Shown here piece after piece: positions 391-11,650 of a stretch of 39,892 nt of DNA. The position numbers and the translations under genes were made by a program. The DNA comes from Roseburia sp. (GTDB taxonomy: Bacteria; Bacillota; Clostridia; Lachnospirales; Lachnospiraceae): NCBI GenBank assembly GCA_023664685.1, contig JAMPFC010000020.1, positions 1-39,892 of the forward strand, in the 5' to 3' direction. The first letter of the stretch is position 1. The number at the start of each line of letters is the position of its first letter. Below the pieces are notes generated by a model. That model was not told where the DNA came from. It ran no database searches and saw only the letters and a list, made by a program, of their open reading frames with translations.

Positions 391-647
391 GTTATTTTCT
401 CTTAAGGATTATCTACATATCTTACGGATTAATCCGCTTTTGCATTATACTTTGCCCCCCGTCCATCGGCAGATGTTGCTATAAAAGATGAATGAGTGCT
501 AGACTTTGTTTGTGTAGTGTGATATACTTTACTTATAAAATTATTTTTTGCTCTGGACTTTAGTTACGAATTTATAGAAAGATCAATACTCAGACAGGCG
601 CAACTTTTTTAAAACCATTGCCTGCATTGTTAAAGGAGATTAGTATA
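391..647. other. Intergenic, weak promoter for hicB-like gene
   Basis: No gene is visible in this AT-rich spacer. A weak promoter is possible at TAGACT (500-505) and TATACT (523-528), 17 bases apart, ahead of the HicB-like gene. No hicA toxin gene is found here, although hicA is normally next to hicB. Confidence 0.35.
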
Positions 648-950
648 ATGAAGCTTATTTACCCAGCAATTTTTACACCTTGCGAAGAAAAATCAGGATA
701 TACCGTGGAAGTACCTGATCTTCCCGGCTGTGTGTCAGAGGGTGATACTCTTATCGAAGCGATTGAAATGGGAACAGATGCGGCGAGTGGGTGGATACTC
801 GGTGAACTAGAGGACGGTCATGATATCCCCAAACCGTCAAAGCATACTGATATTCCCATTGATGGCAACAACTTCATTAACCTTCTGGTTCTTGATATGG
901 ATTCCTATTCCGAAAAATATGGTTCCAGAAGCCAAGCCAATATGCTATAA
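648..950 (+). CDS. HicB-family antitoxin, C-terminally short, no HicA
   Basis: The 100-residue product matches the N-terminal partial RNase H-like domain of HicB antitoxins: an N-terminal strand (MKLIYPAIF), the GYTVEVPDLPGC core and the segment EGDTLIEAIEMGTDAA. Full HicB proteins usually continue into a ribbon-helix-helix or HTH DNA-binding part. Here the protein stops ten residues after the conserved MDSYSEKYG-like segment, with a tail (SRSQANML) unlike the family. ATG 648 is chosen over the upstream ATG at 618 because AAAGGAG lies 9 bases before it. No HicA toxin lies beside it. The gene converges on higA and overlaps its end by 6 bases. It is probably a decayed or recombined remnant, although short HicB proteins also exist. 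Confidence 0.7.
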   Translation: MKLIYPAIFTPCEEKSGYTVEVPDLPGCVSEGDTLIEAIEMGTDAASGWILGELEDGHDIPKPSKHTDIPIDGNNFINLLVLDMDSYSEKYGSRSQANML

Positions 951-1271
951 ATTCTGTTTTTTTACAATTTGCAATTCGTATCCTAACGCATTTACCATGC
1001 TATAAAATAATTTTAAAGATGGGCTATGCTCATTTTTTTCTAATCTTGAAATCGCCTGTTGTTTACTACCTATCATTCTTGCAAGTTCAGATTGAGATAT
1101 ATTCTCGTTCTTGCGGATTTCAACAAGACGATTGATCAATTCCGTATCACTATCTGATACATAAAATGTAGGCGCCGCCATTTCTTTTTTCTTAGTAAGT
1201 GGAATAGAACCTTTTTCAATTTCAACAGCCTCTAATAACCCCTGCATGGTATCATCAAAAAAATTGCCCAT
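945..1271 (-). CDS. higA: HigA-type antitoxin, XRE family
   Basis: This is a 108-residue antitoxin with an unstructured N-terminal part expected to wrap the toxin and a C-terminal XRE helix-turn-helix from about residue 45 to 100 (segments QSELARMIGSKQQAISRLE and LFYSMVNALGYEL). It follows the toxin gene by 3 bases, and toxin-first order is the rule for higBA. It should neutralise the RelE/HigB-like toxin and repress the operon, probably at the palindrome 1584-1601. The gene ends 6 bases inside the convergent hicB-like gene. Confidence 0.85.
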   Translation of the reverse strand: MGNFFDDTMQGLLEAVEIEKGSIPLTKKKEMAAPTFYVSDSDTELINRLVEIRKNENISQSELARMIGSKQQAISRLEKNEHSPSLKLFYSMVNALGYELQIVKKQNL

Positions 1272-1274
1272 TGT

Positions 1275-1583
1275 CTATCCCTCCTTTAAGATTTTTACAA
1301 CTGCTTTAAATGATTTTTTCTCATCCTCTGTTAAATCATCTTTCTCATTCTTAGAATAAACATTCACGAAATAAATGGTTTCTCTTACTTCGATATCTAC
1401 ATAAATCACCCGACTTCCACCACTTTTTCCTCTATTTTCCATTGGAATACGGATTTTTCTAAGTCCACCAGTTCCTTGAATAACATCACCAGCCTTAGAA
1501 TCATTCAATAATATATTCTGTAATTTCCTTGACATTTCATCATTTAGTCCTAATTCTTTCCTCTCCTGTTTGTAATTATACAA
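1275..1583 (-). CDS. higB: HigB/RelE-like toxin
   Basis: The product of about 102 residues carries the signature of HigB2-type mRNA interferases: AGDVIQGTGGLRKIR, then RGKSGGSRVIYVD and VYSKNEKDDLTEDEKK. RelE-fold toxins cleave mRNA on the ribosome. The start is uncertain. TTG at 1583-1581 is the only start codon after an in-frame TAG at 1604-1602 that keeps most of the N-terminal strand, but it has no ribosome binding site. An AGGAGAGG sequence lies downstream, where the next in-frame ATG is residue 17 (1535). The codons just before TTG 1583 still read like family N-termini (RFVVL), so the start may have been lost or be non-standard. It pairs with the higA-type gene that follows. Confidence 0.78.
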   Translation of the reverse strand: MYNYKQERKELGLNDEMSRKLQNILLNDSKAGDVIQGTGGLRKIRIPMENRGKSGGSRVIYVDIEVRETIYFVNVYSKNEKDDLTEDEKKSFKAVVKILKEG

Positions 1584-1601
1584 TACAACAAATCTGTTGT
1601 A
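1575..1601 (-). promoter_or_regulatory. Palindromic operator and -10 of higBA
   Basis: TACAACA (1584-1590) and TGTTGTA (1595-1601) form a 7-bp inverted repeat with a 4-base centre. It is next to a minus-strand TATAAT at 1580-1575, and a TTGATA lies just upstream on the minus strand. This placement suits autoregulation by the XRE antitoxin. If transcription starts from this TATAAT, the TTG at 1583 would lie upstream of the transcript start. Confidence 0.5.
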
Positions 1602-1640
1602 CTATCAAGAGCAATCTGGCAAATTTGCATTTCGATTTTC

Positions 1641-2798
1641 CTAACTGCTATGTTCAATCTGCCTCATTTCCTGTTCGGCTTTTTCATAATTGGCGTGCGT
1701 ATACACATTTAACGTAACACTTACGTCAGAATGCCCCATCAGATATTGCAGGCTTTTAATATCCATTCCCGCATTTGCCATATTAGTGCAAAACGTATGC
1801 CGCAGCACATGGGGCGTAACCGGCGGGAGCGGCATTTCATGCGTAGCATTATATTTATTCCACGCCCTTTTCATCACATGCTCGATATGCGCCGCCACTT
1901 TTGGATTTCCCTCCCTATCCAACAAAATAAAACCGCTGCGGCCGCTCACTACTTTTTCATTTTCAACCGCACTTCTATTGGCAACAATATTTTTCAAACT
2001 CCGGTACACATTTTCTGTCATAGGAATATAACGAACTCCCGATTTTGTCTTTGCTTCTTCTATATAATAATCCCCATCTCTCGTCCTGACCAACTGATGA
2101 TCCACACGAATCCTCTGCTTTTCAAAATCAATATCGCGCATTGTCAGACCCGTGAACTCGCTGATCCTCATACCAGTACCGAGCAAAACAAGAAATTCAT
2201 CCAGATATCGGCAATAATGTCCATCCTCTTCGATAAAAGTCAAAAATTTTTTCTGCTCCTCTTCCGTCATAGCCACCCGCCTTTTGGAATTGTTCGGTAT
2301 CATATCCAATCTGAAATCAAACGGATTCCTCCGAACAATCTCCTCATTGTATGCCATCTGAAAAGCCGGCTTTACCACACCCCGGACATTCGCAATCGTG
2401 CTGTATCCCCGGCCATCCTCTGCCAATTTCATAAACCATTGTTTGGCATCAAAAACCTTTACATCTCGAATCCTCCGATACCCAAAATCCTCCTTCCGGA
2501 TCAGATTCAGCACAAACTGATAGCCAACCCATGTATTATACCGCACCCCTTTTTTCAAACAAATATACCGCTCGACCAGTTCAACCACAGTAATATTTCC
2601 CCCTGCATAGTCCGCCCCGCTGTTCAAAAACTTTTGAATCTCGCTCTCTTTCTCCCTTAATTTCCTCAAATCCGAAGAATAAACCGTCCGCCGCTTGCCG
2701 CCCAGATCCATATACCGGTACTGATAAAGCAAATCTTTCCTCTGGCTCTCCCCCTTCCTCAAAACTCTTCCCCTATGATCCTTTCTTTTCTCAGACAT
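1641..2798 (-). CDS. int: Tyrosine recombinase, Tn916-type integrase
   Basis: The 385-residue protein has an N-terminal arm-type DNA-binding domain (about 1-60), a SAM-like core-binding domain (about 68-165) and a catalytic domain. All catalytic residues are visible: R211 in GTGMRISE, K252 in EAKTKSG, H330 and R333 in HVLRHTFCT, H356 in MGHSDVS and the nucleophile Y366 in NVYTHA. It should therefore be active. This family moves Tn916-like conjugative or mobilisable elements. No excisionase or conjugation genes are in the window, so the element is degraded or extends left. The start has GGAAAGGA upstream. The gene has its own promoter at 2917-2945. Confidence 0.93.
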   Translation of the reverse strand: MSEKRKDHRGRVLRKGESQRKDLLYQYRYMDLGGKRRTVYSSDLRKLREKESEIQKFLNSGADYAGGNITVVELVERYICLKKGVRYNTWVGYQFVLNLIRKEDFGYRRIRDVKVFDAKQWFMKLAEDGRGYSTIANVRGVVKPAFQMAYNEEIVRRNPFDFRLDMIPNNSKRRVAMTEEEQKKFLTFIEEDGHYCRYLDEFLVLLGTGMRISEFTGLTMRDIDFEKQRIRVDHQLVRTRDGDYYIEEAKTKSGVRYIPMTENVYRSLKNIVANRSAVENEKVVSGRSGFILLDREGNPKVAAHIEHVMKRAWNKYNATHEMPLPPVTPHVLRHTFCTNMANAGMDIKSLQYLMGHSDVSVTLNVYTHANYEKAEQEMRQIEHSS

Positions 2799-2824
2799 TG
2801 CGATTCCTTTCCGACAGAAAAGAG

Positions 2825-2852
2825 CCCTGAAATGACTTTCGTCAGATCAGGG
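2825..2852 (-). terminator. Hairpin in the int leader
   Basis: CCCTGA (2825-2830) pairs with TCAGGG (2847-2852), with GAC/GTC pairing inside. On the minus strand it is followed by CTCTTTTCTG. It lies between the int promoter and the int start and downstream of the 1080-codon gene. It could terminate that operon or attenuate int expression. Confidence 0.5.
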
Positions 2853-2916
2853 TTCGATCGGTCTTTTTGCTTTTTAGTTGTTCTTGGCTAAGTTCTTTTG
2901 ATGCAACTATGTCTTT

Positions 2917-2945
2917 ATTATATAGAATAGATTTTACGCTGTCAA
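2917..2945 (-). promoter_or_regulatory. Consensus promoter for int
   Basis: On the minus strand TTGACA (2945-2940) and TATAAT (2922-2917) are 17 bases apart, a perfect consensus. The leader to the int start is about 110 nt and contains the hairpin 2825-2852. A 22-codon open stretch in the leader has no start codon, so I do not call it a gene. Confidence 0.8.
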
Positions 2946-2992
2946 ATAATTTTCCTTATAAATAAAGTTACACACAAGTGCCTAAAAACTAA

Positions 2993-5900
2993 TTACTTAT
3001 TGCTTTCTTCTGTTGGAAAAATAAAATAATTAATACCTCCTTCATCGTTAAGCATTTCAATTTTTTTCACCACCCTCATATCCTGTGGATTCTCAGAATC
3101 ATATTCATCTCCACTTTTATCACTTACCACAACCTTATAAAAAGCCTCCAATCCTTTAAAACTCTCCAAAAAATTTGTAATTTTTCTTGGAAGCATATCT
3201 ATAATTTTCTTAACACCATCATTAGATATTGCAGGACACTGGTCACTCTCCCCCTTTGCTTTATAGTCCAAACAGAACGGACTTTGTTTAGCAACTTTCA
3301 TAGAATTTAAAAACATATATATACCATTATGGATACGTTGAATATCCTTTTCTGTTAAAAACGGAAAAAAATAACGATAAAATACTGTTTCTAAATATGA
3401 ATATACGGAATATAAAACTAAAGAAATATATCTGTCTAAGTTACCTTTTTCTTTATCAGTATCGTTTAATATGCTTTTTATCTCCACTCTCAATTTATTC
3501 ATTAATGACTGGAATATCTTTTTTCGTACATTACTTTGAAGTTCACAAAGCAATGTATTATTATCATTGTCATTACTAGTATTTGAATCAACTTCATTTT
3601 TTATCAAGAACTTACGAAGTTTTTGGTCTTCATCCACAAAAAGAGAAGCTAATCCAAATGTCGCTGGTCCCGAACTTCCAACAATAGATACTCTAAAATG
3701 TTGATTGTTTTCCCCCTTTTGCCCATCTTCTTTCCATAAAATAAGTTGTGCAATCTGTACATGATCAGAACAATCTTTCAACGGACAATCTGTCCTCTCC
3801 ATAATAGACTCTTCGTGAAGATCATATATGATTTCCTCACTAATTTTTCTTTTAGTAACAACTTTATTACATGTTTTACAAAAAGAGCGTGTTAAGTACG
3901 AATAAACGCCTTTTTCACTAACTAAATCTGCTTCATTCTTACAAACAAACCCTCTAACCTGAACATTATTATAATGACCACATTTATCACAATCAATATA
4001 CTCATTCTTATACTCATGAATTTTATTGATGTGGCTATCATTACCCATTTTAGCAACACTGCTCTCTTTGCATCTGTCAAAAATGTATTCAGTCACTTTT
4101 TTTGTCAAAGGCTTTACTGGTTGCCCCACACAAATGAAATTAACATCTTCTGCTACCCTATCCTCAACCCCATCTGGCAAGCTAATAAGTACATACTCCC
4201 CAATAACAGATCGTTTCGATAAATAATACGATAATGCCGATACTGCATCTAAATCCCAATTTGTAATGCGTGACATCGCCCCCATCTCTGCATCATTATT
4301 ATCACTATGTTGTGGCAAATAGATTCTAAGACGATTATAGCGGAGCATCGTATTCCAAAATTTCCTTCGGTAATAAGATTCCAATGCCAACCAGTCTTTT
4401 ATCTGGTTCTCTTTACCATCTTCTTTTAATTTTCTCTCTGAAGTGCTTTCACCATTCTCCCCCGATTCATGAAGTTCTAAATATTCCCATTTTTTAAACC
4501 CATGCCAATCCGTATCAAAGGGAATAATTTTAGAATGCTTTTCAATGCCAAATTGCGCTAATGCCAACTGATGATAAAACCCTTCGGTATCATGCGAATA
4601 ATAATATGCCGTCCATAAACCTGCAACATCAAAGACATTTCTACTATTCCCCTGTATATCCCCCTCCACAATTTTTCTTTCTTTTTCTGTAAGCTCGTTT
4701 TTAACCGTTATCGCATAAACTTCCGCACCATGTGCTGCTCCAAGCCAAAACAATGACTGCGGACTATTATTTGTGATATCTACCACAATCTCATTTGTAT
4801 AGCAAAGAGTTCTAAGCATTACATGGTACAAGCAAAAGGCCTCTTCCTCGCTATCCTTTTTAAGAACATCGGGAGTTATTTGATTTTTTACCCTTTCCAC
4901 ATAAACTGGATTGTCAGGATATAAAATCATACCCCTATTTCCAATATACTCTTTTACAAAGTATTCTATTTCTTGTTTATGTGTTTTTCCAAAGTTCTCG
5001 ATTTCACTTAATTCCGAAAAAAGTTTCGCTATGTCTTCTGTTCGAATTTTTTCTTTTGCCGCCAAATATGTCGCCTGATTTACTCCAATATGTATGATTT
5101 CGCCTGCATTATAAAGAACATGTCGTTCCTTTTGGGCATCTTTATCACTGTCTGGTATTACATTTCCCTGTACTAATACACCTACACGTTCACCACAAAA
5201 ACATTGTTCTTTCTTCATTCGTTCTGTAATACTACGATAAAAATTCACAATACATCTTCCTGCCTGATCTTTATTCAGAAAACCCTCTATCGTATAAACA
5301 ACTAAAGTATTATCATCTTTTGTAGCATTATTATATTCCTTCATCAATCTTCCGTAAATAATTTCTCCAATGTTACTTTCGTTACTTCCTAATCTTTCAT
5401 CATATGGGAAACGTCCATACTGTTTATCTGAAAAACCATACAAACGATTTGCTGCTTTCTCAAACTCCAAATATGACGTATTTGAAGAATTATCATTTTT
5501 TTCATTTTGCTTAAAACGAATCCCATAATATTCAAATAATTTTTTTCGCCACGGATAACATCCTATATGTTTCTCTAGTTCCTCTAACTGATCTAGGTTC
5601 TTAATATCCATTTCTTTTATTTCTTTAGGATACTCTGATTTATAAAAACTTTCACTAAAACAAATAGGCAATATCAACTTCTCTAAAGCAACAGCCATCC
5701 CAAACTCATAAAACACATTTGGATTCTGGGTAGATACATCTACAATTACAAGATCTGCTATCTGCATTTGTTGACAAATACGACTACAAATAACATAATT
5801 GGATGACGGATTTGAATCTGCACGAACCACCTTAATTTTATCAACTTTTTCCATACCTTCTGGTATATCATTCTTTTCGATATTACAGTATAATCTTTTC

Positions 5901-6235
5901 TTTTCGCTATCCACATACAGATATTTGTTTAAAGATTCAATAAATTTTTCAATACGCCACTTATACACAACATCTGACATATCAGAAAAATTCATAATAA
6001 CAAATGCTGAAATTACAATCTCCCCATCTCCCTTTTCATACAATTTTTTTCTTTCACGCTGAATGTTTGTCTTTTGAGAACAATATTCTCCGCTCATAAA
6101 ACACCGACGAGTATGATTACTACTCTCCGTAGAAATATAACATCTCTGGCATGCTTCCTTTCCCTCTGTATTCCCACTATTAGTACATTCTTTATTGCAT
6201 ATATCAATTGCTTGCTGTGTATTATTTTCAGACAT
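2993..6235 (-). CDS. Large multidomain protein, deoxyribosyltransferase/TIR-like
   Basis: I do not know a named family for the whole 1080-residue protein. Order: a Cys-rich N-terminus (C13, C17, C29, C32, C45, C52); a Rossmann-like domain at about 72-200 with FVIMNF, a conserved RAD (138-140) and IADLVIVDVS followed by NPNVFYEFG, where E177 is at the position of the catalytic Glu of nucleoside 2-deoxyribosyltransferase/TIR-like NADase folds; a weaker copy at about 309-515 (VVDITNNSPQSLFWLG) with Trp497 in place of that Glu; a third alpha/beta segment at about 634-720; a CxxC...CxxC zinc-knuckle-like part (C749, C752, C786, C789); a segment with VSIVGSSGPATFGLASL (849-865); and a helical C-terminus. 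No membrane segment is seen. It lies 49 bases after the ThsA-like gene in the same operon, with AGAGGAAAGGA before its ATG. Inferred role: it makes a nucleotide signal for, or acts with, the macro-domain protein in phage defence. Confidence 0.75.
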   Translation of the reverse strand: MSENNTQQAIDICNKECTNSGNTEGKEACQRCYISTESSNHTRRCFMSGEYCSQKTNIQRERKKLYEKGDGEIVISAFVIMNFSDMSDVVYKWRIEKFIESLNKYLYVDSEKKRLYCNIEKNDIPEGMEKVDKIKVVRADSNPSSNYVICSRICQQMQIADLVIVDVSTQNPNVFYEFGMAVALEKLILPICFSESFYKSEYPKEIKEMDIKNLDQLEELEKHIGCYPWRKKLFEYYGIRFKQNEKNDNSSNTSYLEFEKAANRLYGFSDKQYGRFPYDERLGSNESNIGEIIYGRLMKEYNNATKDDNTLVVYTIEGFLNKDQAGRCIVNFYRSITERMKKEQCFCGERVGVLVQGNVIPDSDKDAQKERHVLYNAGEIIHIGVNQATYLAAKEKIRTEDIAKLFSELSEIENFGKTHKQEIEYFVKEYIGNRGMILYPDNPVYVERVKNQITPDVLKKDSEEEAFCLYHVMLRTLCYTNEIVVDITNNSPQSLFWLGAAHGAEVYAITVKNELTEKERKIVEGDIQGNSRNVFDVAGLWTAYYYSHDTEGFYHQLALAQFGIEKHSKIIPFDTDWHGFKKWEYLELHESGENGESTSERKLKEDGKENQIKDWLALESYYRRKFWNTMLRYNRLRIYLPQHSDNNDAEMGAMSRITNWDLDAVSALSYYLSKRSVIGEYVLISLPDGVEDRVAEDVNFICVGQPVKPLTKKVTEYIFDRCKESSVAKMGNDSHINKIHEYKNEYIDCDKCGHYNNVQVRGFVCKNEADLVSEKGVYSYLTRSFCKTCNKVVTKRKISEEIIYDLHEESIMERTDCPLKDCSDHVQIAQLILWKEDGQKGENNQHFRVSIVGSSGPATFGLASLFVDEDQKLRKFLIKNEVDSNTSNDNDNNTLLCELQSNVRKKIFQSLMNKLRVEIKSILNDTDKEKGNLDRYISLVLYSVYSYLETVFYRYFFPFLTEKDIQRIHNGIYMFLNSMKVAKQSPFCLDYKAKGESDQCPAISNDGVKKIIDMLPRKITNFLESFKGLEAFYKVVVSDKSGDEYDSENPQDMRVVKKIEMLNDEGGINYFIFPTEESNK

Positions 6236-6284
6236 TATATAATCCTTTCCTCTGTTTATTATTTTTCAGTAATTTCTACAAGTA

Positions 6285-7166
6285 TCAGTCAAAAATAGAA
6301 ACCTCCCCTTTTTGTTCCTGAGAAATCACAATATTTACTTTACCACGCACTATATCCAGATTTAATTCCAAAAGAGCTTTTAAAAGCCTGAGAGAATCAC
6401 TTGGACTTAACCCTGCCCCAGACATTCCTGTCCCTATTAAGGGCAAATATAAATCATATCCTTGTCCTTTTTCATAATAATATTTTAACATAGACTCTGC
6501 ACATTGGATGACTTCCTCTCTTGAACTGTGAGCATTATTATTTTGGTCAAATCTTGATAGTGCCATCAAAAAAAATATAACATCACCACTTTCTATTGGC
6601 ACAACTGTCCCAAGCTCATAATTTTCTAATTTTCTTCGCACATCCTCACACTTTAATTTCTTCACTGGCGTTTCATTTTGAAGAGTCTGTTCAATTTTTT
6701 TATCAAGTTCATCGATCCCCATTTCCTTTTCACAATATTTCAGAATCCATTTTCCATGAATTGTTTCTGTAGAAATTAATGGTCTTTGATTATTTGGTAT
6801 GGTTTCATCTACGATTGTATCAAAACCCGTATTAACCGGAATAACCACTATCCGTTTGCCCTTACATTTTCTCGGAAAACCTAGTTTCAAAATATCGCCA
6901 TATCGGACACAAATTTCCTTTCTTCCTACTTTATACACAATAGATTCTCTTTTTAAAAAACAAATCCATAAAGCAGCAAACACTACACTACATAAGATAA
7001 TACAAATAAAAAACAAAATTTTATCTGTTGCTCCTCGACACCCAATTTCTTCCCATGCTACAAAAGAAAGAACAACAGAAAGTATTGAAAAAACCATACC
7101 CATTATTTTTATCCAAACTTCTACTATTCTCTTTATATTATATTTTATGATTTCTATAATTTTCAT
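6285..7166 (-). CDS. Two-TM macro-domain protein, ThsA (DUF6430)-like
   Basis: The 293-residue protein has two membrane helices (about 18-38 and 50-71), then a cytoplasmic macro-like domain (about 80-293). The domain shows the DUF6430/ThsA-macro pattern: VVIPVNTGFDT (107-117), the Ser/Thr-x-x-x-HG motif ending in H137-G138, MALSRFDQNNNA (201-212) and LPLIGTGMSGAG (241-252). In type II Thoeris such proteins bind an ADP-ribose-derived signal (histidine-ADPR) made by the TIR protein ThsB and then damage the membrane. Here no TIR gene is adjacent; the partner position is taken by the 1080-residue protein 49 bases downstream. An XRE regulator gene lies 41 bases upstream. AGAGGG precedes the ATG. 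Family assignment is firm on motifs; the system's activity is inferred. Confidence 0.82.
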   Translation of the reverse strand: MKIIEIIKYNIKRIVEVWIKIMGMVFSILSVVLSFVAWEEIGCRGATDKILFFICIILCSVVFAALWICFLKRESIVYKVGRKEICVRYGDILKLGFPRKCKGKRIVVIPVNTGFDTIVDETIPNNQRPLISTETIHGKWILKYCEKEMGIDELDKKIEQTLQNETPVKKLKCEDVRRKLENYELGTVVPIESGDVIFFLMALSRFDQNNNAHSSREEVIQCAESMLKYYYEKGQGYDLYLPLIGTGMSGAGLSPSDSLRLLKALLELNLDIVRGKVNIVISQEQKGEVSIFD

Positions 7167-7207
7167 ATTTACCCTCTTTTAGATGATAAACATCCTATTT
7201 CTCTCCC

Positions 7208-7537
7208 TCACTCCTCCAACACCCCTCTCAAGCTCCTCACTACCGACAAAATAACCTTCATCTCGTAATCCGAACACTCCCCCAACTCCTTCATGAGCAT
7301 ATTCCGCACCTGAAGGTTCTCGGCCATCTCCGGATAAAACACCTGATAAAGCGGCAGATCCAGTTCCCTCACTAAGAGACAAAGGATTTCAAATTTCGGA
7401 TTACCAGTATTCTTTTCAATATCAATGATCGTTCGCTTACATACGCCAATCCGCTCTGCTAAAGCCTCTTGCGATAGGTGTTTCCTTTTTCTTGTCTTGC
7501 GGACGATATCACCTAAAGCCTTTCTCGTCTGGTTCAT
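7208..7537 (-). CDS. XRE-family transcriptional regulator
   Basis: The 109-residue protein has a helix-turn-helix at about residues 8-65 (LSQEALAERIGVCKRTIIDIEKNTGNPKFE) and a short C-terminal helical part. It is the first gene of a minus-strand run with the ThsA-like and 1080-residue genes, 41 bases before the former, so it probably controls the operon. ACGAGGTGA stands 6 bases before the ATG. Similar small regulators are common at the ends of Tn916-like elements. Autoregulation is inferred from position. Confidence 0.85.
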   Translation of the reverse strand: MNQTRKALGDIVRKTRKRKHLSQEALAERIGVCKRTIIDIEKNTGNPKFEILCLLVRELDLPLYQVFYPEMAENLQVRNMLMKELGECSDYEMKVILSVVRSLRGVLEE

Positions 7538-7556
7538 TACAGTTCACCTCGTAATT

Positions 7557-7585
7557 ATTATATACTACACTTTTTGTCTGCACAA
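7557..7585 (-). promoter_or_regulatory. Promoter of XRE / ThsA-like operon
   Basis: Minus-strand TTGTGC (7585-7580) and TATAAT (7562-7557) are 17 bases apart and lie about 20 bases before the XRE start. AT-rich inverted-repeat-like sequence overlaps the region and could hold the regulator's operator. Confidence 0.6.
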
Positions 7586-7746
7586 TCCGCTATAGTTCAT
7601 CTTAATATGCGTTATTGTTCCCTTTTTCGACAAACTTCGACGTATTTTTCCCTTATGAGTATAAACTCCTATAGCTTTTATCCGTGATACTCTTTTTGTT
7701 CAATCCGCCAAGTCCCATCTGCCTTTGCCCCACCACATGCAAAAAA

Positions 7747-7788
7747 ATAAGCACATACACTTATCTTTTTACAAGTATACATGCTTAT
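7747..7788. repeat. Imperfect inverted repeat
   Basis: ATAAGCA at 7747-7753 pairs with TGCTTAT at 7782-7788, and the following bases continue with wobble pairing up to ACTT/AAGT. It could be a terminator or mark the edge of the accessory region. Confidence 0.45.
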
Positions 7789-7840
7789 GAAAATATTTTA
7801 TGGTTCAGCAGCACTCCGCCATCCGCCAACTAAAAGATGA

Positions 7841-7869
7841 TTGAAATACACACATAATTCGCTTATAAT
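7841..7869 (+). promoter_or_regulatory. Promoter of exonuclease gene
   Basis: TTGAAA (7841-7846) and TATAAT (7864-7869) are 17 bases apart, about 57 bases before the ATG at 7926. Confidence 0.65.
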
Positions 7870-7925
7870 AATAGCATATCCGGCGGCCAACCACGAGTTA
7901 CCAAGCGAGAAAGGGTTAAATCAAT

Positions 7926-9032
7926 ATGCATATAACAGACCGAGCATTCGACTTACAAACAAATTCCATTTCCACCCTGCACACATGGCAGGGAACAAAG
8001 GCAGATACTTTCTGCTTTTTTGACATTGAGACGACCGGTCTATCCGCAAAAGTCTCCTCTCTCTATCTGATCGGTGTCCTGTGGTATGACCAAACGGACA
8101 AAAAAATCCACACAAAACAATGGTTTGCCGACGATTACATCAGCGAAAAAGAAATCCTGTGCGCCTTCACCGAATTTATCTCCGGTTTTACAACTGTCGT
8201 CCACTACAACGGTTCCGGCTTTGATATTCCCTACATTGAAAAGAAGTGCAGGGAACTGGAACTCCCCACTCCATTTCATGACATAAAAAGTCTCGATCTT
8301 TACCGGGAAATCCGCCCCCTGAAACCGCTTTTTAAAACTCCTGACCTAAAACTTTTTACAGTTGAAAAACTGGCCGGCTTTATGCGCAAAGATATCCTTT
8401 CGGGGAAAGAATGTATTGAGGTCTATTCCCGCTTCATGCAAAAGAAATATTTCCGGGATTCCTCGATGGAAACGGAAAAGCAAAAACTCCTTCTTCATAA
8501 CATAGAGGATATCATTGGCACATTTTATTGTGCTGAGATGTTATCCTACAGATGTAGTATGTCGTACAAAAAACAGACTGTTAATCCATCTCTTTTGCAG
8601 ATTGATTTCCTGTCCAAAGCCGCCTTTCCGTCCCCGGTCAAATGGAAATCCGCCCCCTATGCCCTTGCCTTTCATGATCATACCGTGACACTGGAGATTT
8701 CCCTCTATTCTGGTGAACTGCGCCACTTTTTCAAGGACTATAAAAATTATTTTTATCTTCCGGCTGAGGACACCGCGATCCACAAAAGCGTGGGGACTTA
8801 TGTGGAAAAAGAATTTCGCCGGCAGGCAAAAGCTTCCGAATGCTATGTAAAAAAAGAGGGGCTTTTCCTTCCCCTTCCATCGGGCATAGAGCCACAGGAT
8901 CTTCCGCTCTTTCGCCCAGACTACCGTTCCCGACAAAATTATCTCCTCTGGGATGAAAAGGTGCAACAGGACCTCTCCCTTTGGGAAGAAATCCTGCACC
9001 AGATCATAAATACACTTTCCCGGAGCAAATAA
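7926..9032 (+). CDS. YprB-like RNase H-fold exonuclease domain protein
   Basis: The 368-residue product has a DnaQ-like DEDD exonuclease domain in its first 200 residues: FFDIETTGLS with D33 and E35 (ExoI), VHYNGSGFDIPYI with D100 (ExoII), and HNIED with H190 and D194 (ExoIII). These residues would bind two metal ions for 3'-5' cleavage of nucleic acid. The C-terminal 170 residues are not recognised and carry no clear motif. It resembles the ribonuclease-H-like protein YprB of Firmicutes, whose substrate is not settled. It is transcribed alone from the promoter at 7841-7869 and converges on purE. Confidence 0.85.
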   Translation: MHITDRAFDLQTNSISTLHTWQGTKADTFCFFDIETTGLSAKVSSLYLIGVLWYDQTDKKIHTKQWFADDYISEKEILCAFTEFISGFTTVVHYNGSGFDIPYIEKKCRELELPTPFHDIKSLDLYREIRPLKPLFKTPDLKLFTVEKLAGFMRKDILSGKECIEVYSRFMQKKYFRDSSMETEKQKLLLHNIEDIIGTFYCAEMLSYRCSMSYKKQTVNPSLLQIDFLSKAAFPSPVKWKSAPYALAFHDHTVTLEISLYSGELRHFFKDYKNYFYLPAEDTAIHKSVGTYVEKEFRRQAKASECYVKKEGLFLPLPSGIEPQDLPLFRPDYRSRQNYLLWDEKVQQDLSLWEEILHQIINTLSRSK

Positions 9033-9108
9033 TTTTTAACCGCGTTTGTTTTTCGCTTTTAAAACGATCGAGTTCGACTCCTTCTTATCCAAACACCTTT
9101 TTCTTCCA

Positions 9109-9621
9109 TCACATCTGCCGGATATACTCCTTATATCCTAACTGATCCAGTTTCTCCGCTTTGGCAGCCACGCCATCCTTCATCTCCACTTTATATTCCT
9201 TGAGCTTCTTCCGCAGCTCCTGATCATAGACCGACAGGATCTTGGCAGCAAGGATTCCCGCATTGGCGGCTCCGTCGATCGCTACCGTAGCAACCGGAAT
9301 CCCCGATGGCATCTGAACGATCGAGTACAGGCTGTCCACGCCGCCGACTGACTTCGTATGGATCGGAATGCCGATGACCGGCAGATCAAATAACGCTGCG
9401 CACATTCCCGGGAGATGGGCTGCTCCGCCTGCTCCGGCGATGATCACCTCGATCCCTCTCTCCTCGGCCTTTGTCGCATATTCTACAAATACATCCGGCA
9501 TGCGGTGCGCCGATATGATCGTCATCTCATAATCAATCCCGAATTTCTCCAACATCTGCGCTGCCTTCTGCATAACTGGCAGATCCGAATCACTGCCCAT
9601 CAAAATACCTACCTTACACAT
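9109..9621 (-). CDS. purE: N5-CAIR mutase PurE
   Basis: PurE converts N5-carboxyaminoimidazole ribonucleotide to CAIR in purine synthesis. The sequence has MGSDSDLP, SAHRMPD with the catalytic His, and AGAGGAAHLPGM, and the 170-residue length fits class I PurE. The ATG at 9621 is chosen because GGAAAGAGG lies 9 bases before it; ATGs at 9654 and 9630 are poorly spaced. It follows the M29 peptidase gene by 19 bases and is probably co-transcribed with it. purC lies more than 10 kb away, so the pur genes are not clustered here. No purine riboswitch is seen upstream. Confidence 0.96.
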   Translation of the reverse strand: MCKVGILMGSDSDLPVMQKAAQMLEKFGIDYEMTIISAHRMPDVFVEYATKAEERGIEVIIAGAGGAAHLPGMCAALFDLPVIGIPIHTKSVGGVDSLYSIVQMPSGIPVATVAIDGAANAGILAAKILSVYDQELRKKLKEYKVEMKDGVAAKAEKLDQLGYKEYIRQM

Positions 9622-9640
9622 AATACTCATCCTCTCTTTC

Positions 9641-11650
9641 CTATTCCATCTCATTTAGTATTTCCGTGCCTGCAAGCACAAATTTTCCTTCACGGATAAT
9701 CACAATCTCCTGTCCATCCCTCGTATTCACCACGATATCTCCCAGTTCATCATAAGGAATGGTAATGTCCGTATGGCAGTTAAAATATGCCTTCTCAATC
9801 TCCGTCTTCCGGAGGATCGAGCATTCATTGTCCTTTGCAACGATTTCCTTTCCATCCGGATTATAGAGGCGGATCTCCTCACTCATCGAATAACACGTAT
9901 CGCCAACTGCAAAATGAGGCCCTGTCTTTTCTGCGATCAGGATCGGAAGTTTCGCTTCAATCCCGTATTTGCGCCCCATCCGGTATGCCATCGTATTCGT
10001 CCCGATCGCAAACTCACCCATCGGAAGTGTCTCCCGGTTGTGAAGCACATTTTCCCGGATATATTTTTTATTTTCCTTCTCATCCCCATAATTGCTGCAG
10101 TTGTAATCCGCAATCATTCCATCCGCAAACGTCATACGAAGCTCCTCATAACGCAGTCCATTCAAATAAACCTCGCCGACGTGAAGAACGCCATTCGTCC
10201 CCTTCAACACAGGCGATGTAAACACCTCACCAACCGGAATGTTCACATCTGCCAGACAGTTCTCAAAATTTGTCTCTTTCGCCGGATCGGAAAGGGTATG
10301 AAGCTTTACTGTGAGGTCAGTCTGATTTGTTCCCCGCCCCGTTATATGAACGGTATCCCCCTGATCCAGTGCATCAATGATCGACTGGTGGATCTTTTTA
10401 TACTGTTCAACATCAAGCGTATTGATCTTCACCGTCTCATCAAATATCTTCTCAAAATCCGCCCCGATCTCCGGCACAGGAAAGGCAATGATCGTAAAAC
10501 TGCGCTCTTCTTCCGGGATATAACGGTCTTGTATGAGCATATGATCCCTCTGGTAATCCACCGATAACTTCTGCTGCTCCGGCGTATACGACGGACTCTC
10601 TTTCCGGTTCTCCGGGACAAACAGTTTTTCCCCGAAAACCTCCATCACCGCAGGCCCCGCCACCCCACGGGCAGCCTCTTTGTATTTTTCAAAACTCTTT
10701 TCCACATGAGCCAGTTTTTCCTTTACGACCGCATGATTCAGATACAGTGCATCATCAAAGCGATGATCATAAATATACTGTCGGTTCGCCGGAGACGTGC
10801 AGACGCCGGCAGATTTCGTATTGGAGTTCATGTAAATGACCGGGGCAAGTCCCATTTCCCGAAACTGCCTGACCGCCTCTCTGACAACCGCCTCAAATCC
10901 GATGTGATACCGGATATTCACCGTCTGTTTTTTCGACAGATCGATACCTGCCGCCACAAATCCCTGACGGTACCCTTCGGTATATGTTCTGGCGATGAGT
11001 TCGAGCTTTTCTTTCGGCAGCGAGCGGATATATGCGGCTGTCCGAAGCTCATTTTCAGTAATATTTTCGCCATAATAATACAGGTATCTCTCGTCCATAA
11101 AATCGCTGTCCATGACGATTTTTACGAGACGGTCAAGAGACGGATCGACAATCCGCCGAATACTTTTCTCCGTATAATACTCGTCATAATCATGCACATA
11201 ATAATATAATGTCTCTTTCAGCCACCGCGCCTTGTCCTCCTCCGTCCCGAGGATCGTATACACCTGTAAAAAAAGCTCCATAAGATACAAAAGAGATTCC
11301 CTGTCTCCCTCATAGGCATGCTGGATTCCGCCACGGAAGCGGCTGTGAAAATAAGCGAGAACCTCTCCCTCTTCTTTCCCAAACTCCTGAACGCAAAAAC
11401 GTGGATTGGCAAAAGAGGTTTCGTAGTGGACATCCCGGATATCATCATATAAAATATCGATCCACGCTTTCAACTCCTCCGTGGACACATGCTCCAGTCC
11501 CTCTCCGGTGACAGCCTCAAGTACCCGGTCAAGCCGGGTGAAAAGCTCTGCGGTTTTCAGGCAGTAAATGCTGTATTCCCCCGGAATATCATTTTCGGAA
11601 AGGATCTCTTTGATCCGCCCGGCTGCAAGTTCATATCGTTCCTTTATCAT
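9641..11650 (-). CDS. M29-family aminopeptidase with long N-terminal region
   Basis: The 669-residue protein has a C-terminal M29 (AmpS/PepS) metallopeptidase domain. Visible ligand-type residues are E475 in VGEVFTSP, E546 in GEFAIGTN, E574 and H579 in AEKTGPHFAVGD, and H626 and D628 in CHTDI. These co-catalytic metal peptidases remove N-terminal residues from peptides in the cytosol. Usual M29 enzymes have about 410 residues; here about 260 extra helical residues precede the domain, rich in Tyr, Asp and Glu (LYYYVHDYDEYYTEKS). Their role is unknown. ATG 11650 is preferred over GTG 11656 because GGAGA is correctly spaced. It is upstream of purE and downstream of rnpB. Confidence 0.88.
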   Translation of the reverse strand: MIKERYELAAGRIKEILSENDIPGEYSIYCLKTAELFTRLDRVLEAVTGEGLEHVSTEELKAWIDILYDDIRDVHYETSFANPRFCVQEFGKEEGEVLAYFHSRFRGGIQHAYEGDRESLLYLMELFLQVYTILGTEEDKARWLKETLYYYVHDYDEYYTEKSIRRIVDPSLDRLVKIVMDSDFMDERYLYYYGENITENELRTAAYIRSLPKEKLELIARTYTEGYRQGFVAAGIDLSKKQTVNIRYHIGFEAVVREAVRQFREMGLAPVIYMNSNTKSAGVCTSPANRQYIYDHRFDDALYLNHAVVKEKLAHVEKSFEKYKEAARGVAGPAVMEVFGEKLFVPENRKESPSYTPEQQKLSVDYQRDHMLIQDRYIPEEERSFTIIAFPVPEIGADFEKIFDETVKINTLDVEQYKKIHQSIIDALDQGDTVHITGRGTNQTDLTVKLHTLSDPAKETNFENCLADVNIPVGEVFTSPVLKGTNGVLHVGEVYLNGLRYEELRMTFADGMIADYNCSNYGDEKENKKYIRENVLHNRETLPMGEFAIGTNTMAYRMGRKYGIEAKLPILIAEKTGPHFAVGDTCYSMSEEIRLYNPDGKEIVAKDNECSILRKTEIEKAYFNCHTDITIPYDELGDIVVNTRDGQEIVIIREGKFVLAGTEILNEME

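Follow-up and report, generated by a model that had tools for sequence, protein, structure and literature searches.

A recurring pair of ThsA and a large NDT-like protein in Roseburia sp.: a candidate Thoeris-type operon with another partner in the place of ThsB

The window analyzed here, a 39,892-nucleotide stretch of Roseburia sp. DNA that is an entire contig (JAMPFC010000020.1) with its left end at base 1, carries a minus-strand operon comparable to Thoeris systems of type II, such as EcThs and BaThs, in which the effector ThsA combines transmembrane (TM) helices with a macro domain. According to PMC11204291, TM-macro ThsA binds ADP-ribose (ADPR) and imidazole adenine dinucleotide, the TIR domain of ThsB is capable of base exchange, and ThsB subfamilies with an active-site Tyr like that of nucleoside deoxyribosyltransferases (NDTs) occur only with TM-macro ThsA; its discussion gives histidine-ADPR as the signal of BaThs. 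The NDT-like effector of Retron-Eco1 acts by NAD+ hydrolysis (PMC12405507) and DUF4062 is described as a TIR-like NADase (PMC13174449). PMC9503650 characterizes DrHyd domains as NADases and ADP-ribosyl cyclases, places TIR, DrHyd and SLOG in a single clade and considers FRG a possible NADase.

The operon of the window shares with type II Thoeris the full-length TM-macro ThsA, the organization as a two-gene unit and, given the NDT-like active site that PMC11204291 reports for ThsB subfamilies of these systems, a partner with NDT-like features. It differs in that neither the operon nor the genome contains a ThsB TIR match, and in that the partner, of about 1080 residues, matches no TIR family. 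As the ThsB feature is lacking, the locus is not a strict member of Thoeris, though it may work like one. The reading that we favor, with a probability of about 0.58, is that of a Thoeris-type abortive-infection operon in which the large protein, here called big, takes the place of ThsB as an NDT-like signal-making partner; its chemistry and its role in phage defense are putative. The big family was previously unnamed. In the open-licence literature, no description of ThsA paired with an NDT-type protein was found among the matches listed, as judged by titles and the starts of abstracts; an earlier description is possible. The operon is made up as follows.

6285..7166, minus strand: ThsA, two-helix TM region and macro domain, 293 residues, proposed membrane effector (PF20016, PADLOC ThsA1, macro domains of the Protein Data Bank, PDB)
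2993..6235, minus strand: large partner protein big, 1080 residues, proposed sensor and nucleotide-signal synthase (open reading frame, ORF; family alignment)
7208..7537, minus strand: XRE-type helix-turn-helix (HTH) regulator, 109 residues, first gene of the run, 41 bases before ThsA (HTH_3, E 8.2e-11)

In the ORF list the three genes form one minus-strand run and are separated by 41 and 49 bases, in exact agreement with an initial annotation made from the DNA letters, coordinates included. The macro protein, which that annotation had placed in the ThsA type, is unambiguously ThsA. In fact, it matches PF20016 (ThsA_Macro) with E 1.3e-37, the PADLOC family ThsA1 (PDLC00408) over its full length with E 3.2e-91, and ThsA macro domains of the PDB (9uuz, E 5.1e-10; 8r66, E 8.6e-10). 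In a simple hydropathy scan, scores above 1.6 were reached by 19-residue segments beginning at residues 14-25 and 41-56, consistent with two TM helices at the N-terminus, and by one more beginning at residue 185. To map the ligand pocket, a ThsA from an E. coli plasmid served as reference; 11 of its 12 residues agree with the published numbering. At EcThsA positions 83, 96, 100, 113, 114, 150, 175, 217, 218, 220, 259 and 262, the window protein has D, N, D, I, H, D, S, T, G, S, S and Q, respectively; the letters at 114, 217 and 220 (H, T and S) are shared with 9, 7 and 7, respectively, of 11 ThsB-paired family rows. The pocket is likely to be of the family's kind. Searches for ThsA gave no match in viral contigs and phages, and 73 plasmid records, none of which covers 80% of the query.

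The gene pair of ThsA and big is a recurring unit. An alignment-based scan of genome contigs gave ten big loci (L067-L076) from Lachnospiraceae genera or Clostridiales; nine of them belong to metagenome-assembled genomes (MAGs), and L074, from Blautia schinkii DSM 10518, provides a named source of the pair. Together with the window genome this makes 11 genomes with big, from scans that sample only part of Lachnospiraceae. In six of them ThsA is the immediate same-strand neighbor of big, lying upstream in the window, L067 and L068 and downstream in L071, L074 and L075, with a spacing of 0-64 bases as the ORFs were called. A genome-wide search with PF20016 gave a single ThsA match per genome for these six, and the same family is present in 20 of 396 other family genomes (Fisher p 1.4e-5 for 6/11 vs. 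20/396, a value that is indicative only, since most genomes are MAGs and completeness and relatedness are unmodelled). For the refuting condition set beforehand, that homologues be mostly unlinked to macro-domain genes, the counts are as follows: adjacency holds in 6/11 genomes, or in 6/8 where both flanks or a ThsA neighbor are visible, and 5/11 are without ThsA. The built-in regulator that had been proposed does not hold as a general part of the system, because an XRE gene adjoins only two of the six pairs (the window and, by eye, L071).

Other searches for big covered a wider range of material. Single-sequence searches in genome contigs, viral contigs, plasmids and phages returned nothing. 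The 391 class and 397 family genomes contained no full-length relative besides the window's own protein; they gave 4 and 5 short matches, respectively, eight on the NDT motif and one (L010) elsewhere. A profile search in 398 phylum genomes recovered the own protein and four short matches only, viral contigs searched with the big alignments A1 and A2 gave none, and plasmids and phages searched with the L074 protein gave one short match and none, respectively. No additional full-length big was present in 64 genomes of the genus of L074. A homologue is present in one of 38 other genomes of the window's genus (G797), split into two pieces at contig ends that correspond to residues 15-282 (76% identical), directly behind ThsA, and to residues 904-1075 (61%). 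The genes preceding the first piece, recognized by eye, are presumably prpC, prkC and rsgA, and no integrase lies within the 6.6 kb covered. L067 appears to be this same G797 contig, having the same match place and gene content.

The partners of ThsA were compared across the family. By our own reading, a ThsB-like neighbor of 170-260 residues is present at 12 of the 20 family ThsA loci fetched, and all ten of these proteins that were tested match PF08937. The ThsA tree started from 24 sequences: six big-paired, 17 from the family loci (of the 20 loci, three without a phmmer match were left out, as was a second copy at L061) and the E. coli plasmid reference; the short row L062 was dropped, leaving 23 rows. 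The six big-paired ThsAs are not one clade (AU test, p 1.9e-44), and well supported branches force at least two label changes, in which big may have been gained or may have given way to ThsB. Long branches are seen in three rows, none of which is big-paired. In the clearest case, L068 and L075 share 61.7% identity in big and only 24.0% in ThsA. The ThsA of L068 shares 47.1% identity with the ThsB-paired ThsA of L051, and that of the window is nearest to L067 (53.2%), followed by the ThsB-paired L047 (43.3%) and L048 (42.3%). Because the big-paired ThsAs do not form a clade, and because of the identities between L068 and L075, we conclude from the sequences that the partner of ThsA has been exchanged in evolution, and that ThsB and big occupy the same slot. 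A test of the five big-paired ThsAs without L068 also spoke against monophyly (p 0.036); the group was picked after seeing the tree, and this value is not relied on.

The statement that no canonical TIR gene is present held for the whole assembly (2.999 Mb, 131 contigs, 98.75% complete), which has no match to ThsB_TIR (PF08937) or TIR_2 (PF13676) at E<=0.001. As a positive control, hmmscan with PF08937 recognizes 10/10 ThsB proteins tested from other ThsA loci. A PF08937 match of some kind occurs in six of the ten other big genomes; G817 (L071) and G820 (L074) have no ThsB_TIR genome-wide. If big fills the slot of ThsB, a recurring pair, an own genome without TIR and exchanged partners are to be expected. 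The initial proposal is supported in part: as regards the recurring pairing, the own genome without a ThsB or TIR match and the occurrence of ThsA with either partner, though not as regards a general built-in regulator. Big probably serves the role of ThsB.

The domain layout of big was examined in a family alignment (A2) of 10 rows, some of them partial, which are 43-72% identical to the window protein. Its parts are the following.

6080..6151, minus strand: Cys cluster of big, residues 29-52 (C32, C45 and C52 in 8/8 rows reaching them)
5516..6019, minus strand: NDT/DrHyd/TIR-like domain of big, residues 73-240 (most conserved block, mean pairwise identity 64%; weak PF05014 match)
5705..5707, minus strand: codon of Glu177, putative catalytic residue (Glu in 10/10 rows)
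4526..5335, minus strand: second conserved block of big, residues 301-570, without known domain (59-61% mean pairwise identity)
2993..4525, minus strand: C-terminal region of lower conservation in big, residues 571-1080 (38-39% mean pairwise identity)

Of the Glu motif described as intact in the initial annotation, E177 is kept in every row, and the NDT-type match itself is weak. Nuc_deoxyrib_tr (PF05014) aligns with residues 127-196 of the window protein, a stretch that covers E177, with E 0.0097; nine of the ten aligned members match at E<=1, the best with E 4.9e-5. A profile of big against DNPH1/Rcl structures likewise gave a weak best hit (E 0.012, profile positions 153-186). Y176, E177 and G179 are kept in 10/10 rows and R138, D140, D161, D166, N171 and N173 in the 9/9 rows reaching them. 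Big resembles the NDT/DrHyd superfamily (PF05014, DNPH1/Rcl, the retron NDT effector) in an Asp-containing strand and in the N-x-N-x-F-Y-E-x-G motif with its Glu, and differs from it in that the domain takes up only about 150 of 1080 residues and is followed by a long unnamed C-terminal part. Big has no match among PADLOC families and nothing better than E 0.8 among PDB sequences, and none of the ten members matches TIR families or DUF4062 at E<=1. The DUF4062 TIR-like NADase (Swarozyc) is similar in joining a TIR/NDT-like domain to a large auxiliary region, as described in PMC13174449, and is distinguished from big by the missing DUF4062 match and by the fact that the partner of big is ThsA. 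A type II retron with an NDT effector differs too, because none of the nine ORFs scanned at 618-9654, which include the operon, matched a reverse transcriptase family.

Outside this domain, the Cys cluster perhaps binds a metal, and the C-terminal part of about 500 residues is a plausible candidate for the sensor region. A motif of the second block resembles the first domain by eye, with Trp497 at the place of the Glu in the 8/8 rows reaching it. That residues 301-570 are a dead copy of domain 1 is not claimed, considering that hhalign gave 1.3% to domain 1 and 3.6% to the NDT set. The 99% that hhalign gave for domain 1 against the NDT set is not claimed either, because the set was collected with big and the comparison is circular.

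In the mechanism that we propose, big would sense a phage cue, probably through its variable C-terminal part. The N-terminal domain would then act on NAD+ or a related nucleotide, cleaving the N-glycosidic bond via Glu177 and releasing ADPR or a base-exchanged ADPR compound, if it follows the chemistry of related families. This product would bind the macro pocket of ThsA, whose residues are only partly conserved, and ThsA would oligomerize and damage the membrane by its TM helices, as the literature on TM-macro ThsA suggests. That big makes a nucleotide signal is our best inference.

Several observations weigh against this interpretation. The window protein scores 16.5 bits with PF05014, under the Pfam gathering cut-off of 28.8, and seems, as aligned by eye, to have Phe78 (8/8 rows reaching it) on the first strand where NDTs and some ThsBs have Tyr. 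The scan that found the relatives used the peptides IMNFSDM and VFYEFGM and so favors members with the Glu motif. That big is a distant ThsB is not claimed, hhalign of domain 1 against ThsB giving 0.55%. Five of the 11 big genomes (L069, L070, L072, L073 and L076) have no PF20016 match genome-wide. As for the effector, the window pocket is identical to the E. coli reference at 5/12 positions (D83, N96, D100, S175 and G218), K262 is replaced by Q and position 259 is S, both letters being found in 0/11 ThsB-paired family rows; the pocket of the L068 ThsA departs further. Finally, three of the five other genomes with the pair have a ThsB_TIR match elsewhere: in G813 (L067) this is an orphan TIR gene of small size close to the start of a contig, and in G814 (L068) and G821 (L075) a large TIR protein. 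The six TIR regions fetched showed no match to a profile built from ten ThsBs of the family, nor to the window ThsA, at the thresholds used. Apart from this question, a large TIR protein was observed at the same place in three genomes (L093, L094, L096), beside a gene that by eye resembles glutaminyl-tRNA synthetase.

A different explanation is that big is itself the killer, an NADase depleting NAD+ on infection, with ThsA amplifying the effect through the released ADPR or acting as a second, independent effector. Retron-Eco1 (PMC12405507) and the DUF4062 TIR-like NADases (PMC13174449) are described as acting in this way, and the five big genomes without a ThsA match would be accounted for. 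The changing pairings with ThsA and the short same-strand spacing argue that ThsA matters, and ThsA needs a source of ligand in a window genome without TIR match. For these reasons we hold the killer role to be unlikely, if still worth serious consideration. Less probable, in our judgment, is that big is a non-enzymatic regulator or scaffold, which binds a nucleotide in its NDT-like domain and regulates ThsA through direct contact. The weak match to known enzymes and the second motif with Trp497 replacing Glu would suit such a protein; the invariant Glu177 and the six residues kept in 9/9 rows are what is expected of an active site, and the pairing of two distant ThsA clades with related big proteins is easier to reconcile with a diffusible signal than with a contact interface. 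That independent defense genes merely hitch-hike in islands, ThsA being an orphan or using a signal from elsewhere, agrees with the integrase and toxin-antitoxin-like genes adjoining the locus and with the five big genomes without ThsA, and is nevertheless quite improbable in view of the immediate adjacency, in both orders, in 6/6 genomes holding both genes, for which the chance under random placement is negligible even if every genome had ThsA (2800 genes per genome assumed).

Returning to big as a partner that makes the signal for ThsA, a bolder version has odds somewhat short of even: for the first time, the signal for a Thoeris macro effector might come from a synthase that is not a TIR protein. 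Big would be an enzyme of the NDT/DrHyd type that senses the phage itself and produces an ADPR-type messenger for ThsA, and it would serve as a general alarm module, coupled elsewhere to other effectors such as FRG and small membrane proteins. If big does make the signal, Thoeris effectors would not be bound to canonical TIR enzymes, and a related Rossmann-type domain could replace the signal maker. The NDT-like active site of some ThsB subfamilies, as reported in PMC11204291, would then fall on a continuum. A testable messenger would be predicted, and detection rules that seek ThsB would be widened.

At the big loci without ThsA, other neighbors were seen. An FRG-domain gene (PADLOC candidate PDC-S15) lies 14 bases downstream of big in L069:9974-13992, a genome with no ThsA match, and its product is a possible alternative effector. 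The truncated big in L076:2189-3764 is directly preceded by a small NDT (PF05014, E 4.7e-7) and by a protein of hydrophobic appearance, as judged by eye, with a few masked bases. The big gene of L072 is broken by an in-frame stop, and the protein encoded upstream has a weak, below-cut-off TPR match; at L070 and L073, the contig ends truncate the loci. Two ORFs downstream of big in L068:13825-15906 look by eye like a nucleosidase and a membrane protein. A 257-residue protein at L035:276-1046 has a Cys pair motif and then an NDT-like block, resembling by eye the start of big.

The operon is adjoined on the left by an integrase.

1641..2798, minus strand: Tn916-type tyrosine integrase (PF00589, E 5.9e-38; Tn916 DNA-binding domain PF02920, E 4e-20)

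These two matches bear out the Tn916-type assignment of the initial annotation. An att site was not found, direct repeats being unconvincing. In G804, one of seven genomes of the genus that were compared, the genes from the exonuclease (7926-9032 in the window) rightward follow the window order (exonuclease, purE-like, M29 peptidase), and the genes to its left are other than those of the window; the remaining genomes differ more, and no element boundary was deduced. On the far side of the integrase (618-1583) are genes for a HicB-like antitoxin and a RelE plus HTH pair, which gives the left contig end an accessory look. The ten ORFs scanned on the right side, between 9641 and 33792, have a core or metabolic look, with one MatE transporter.

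ThsA-type genes were also observed beside proteins of other kinds. In L061:12960-15588, a weakly scoring ThsA_Macro gene adjoins that of a 592-residue SIR2_2 protein; in L053:8105-13115 the neighbor encodes a 1377-residue DEAD-box helicase protein, and in L052:8193-13276 a protein of 1403 residues with a TIR_2 domain. At L044:5972-9233, the ThsA_Macro gene lies between those of a pentapeptide-repeat TIR protein and of a 416-residue protein without Pfam match.

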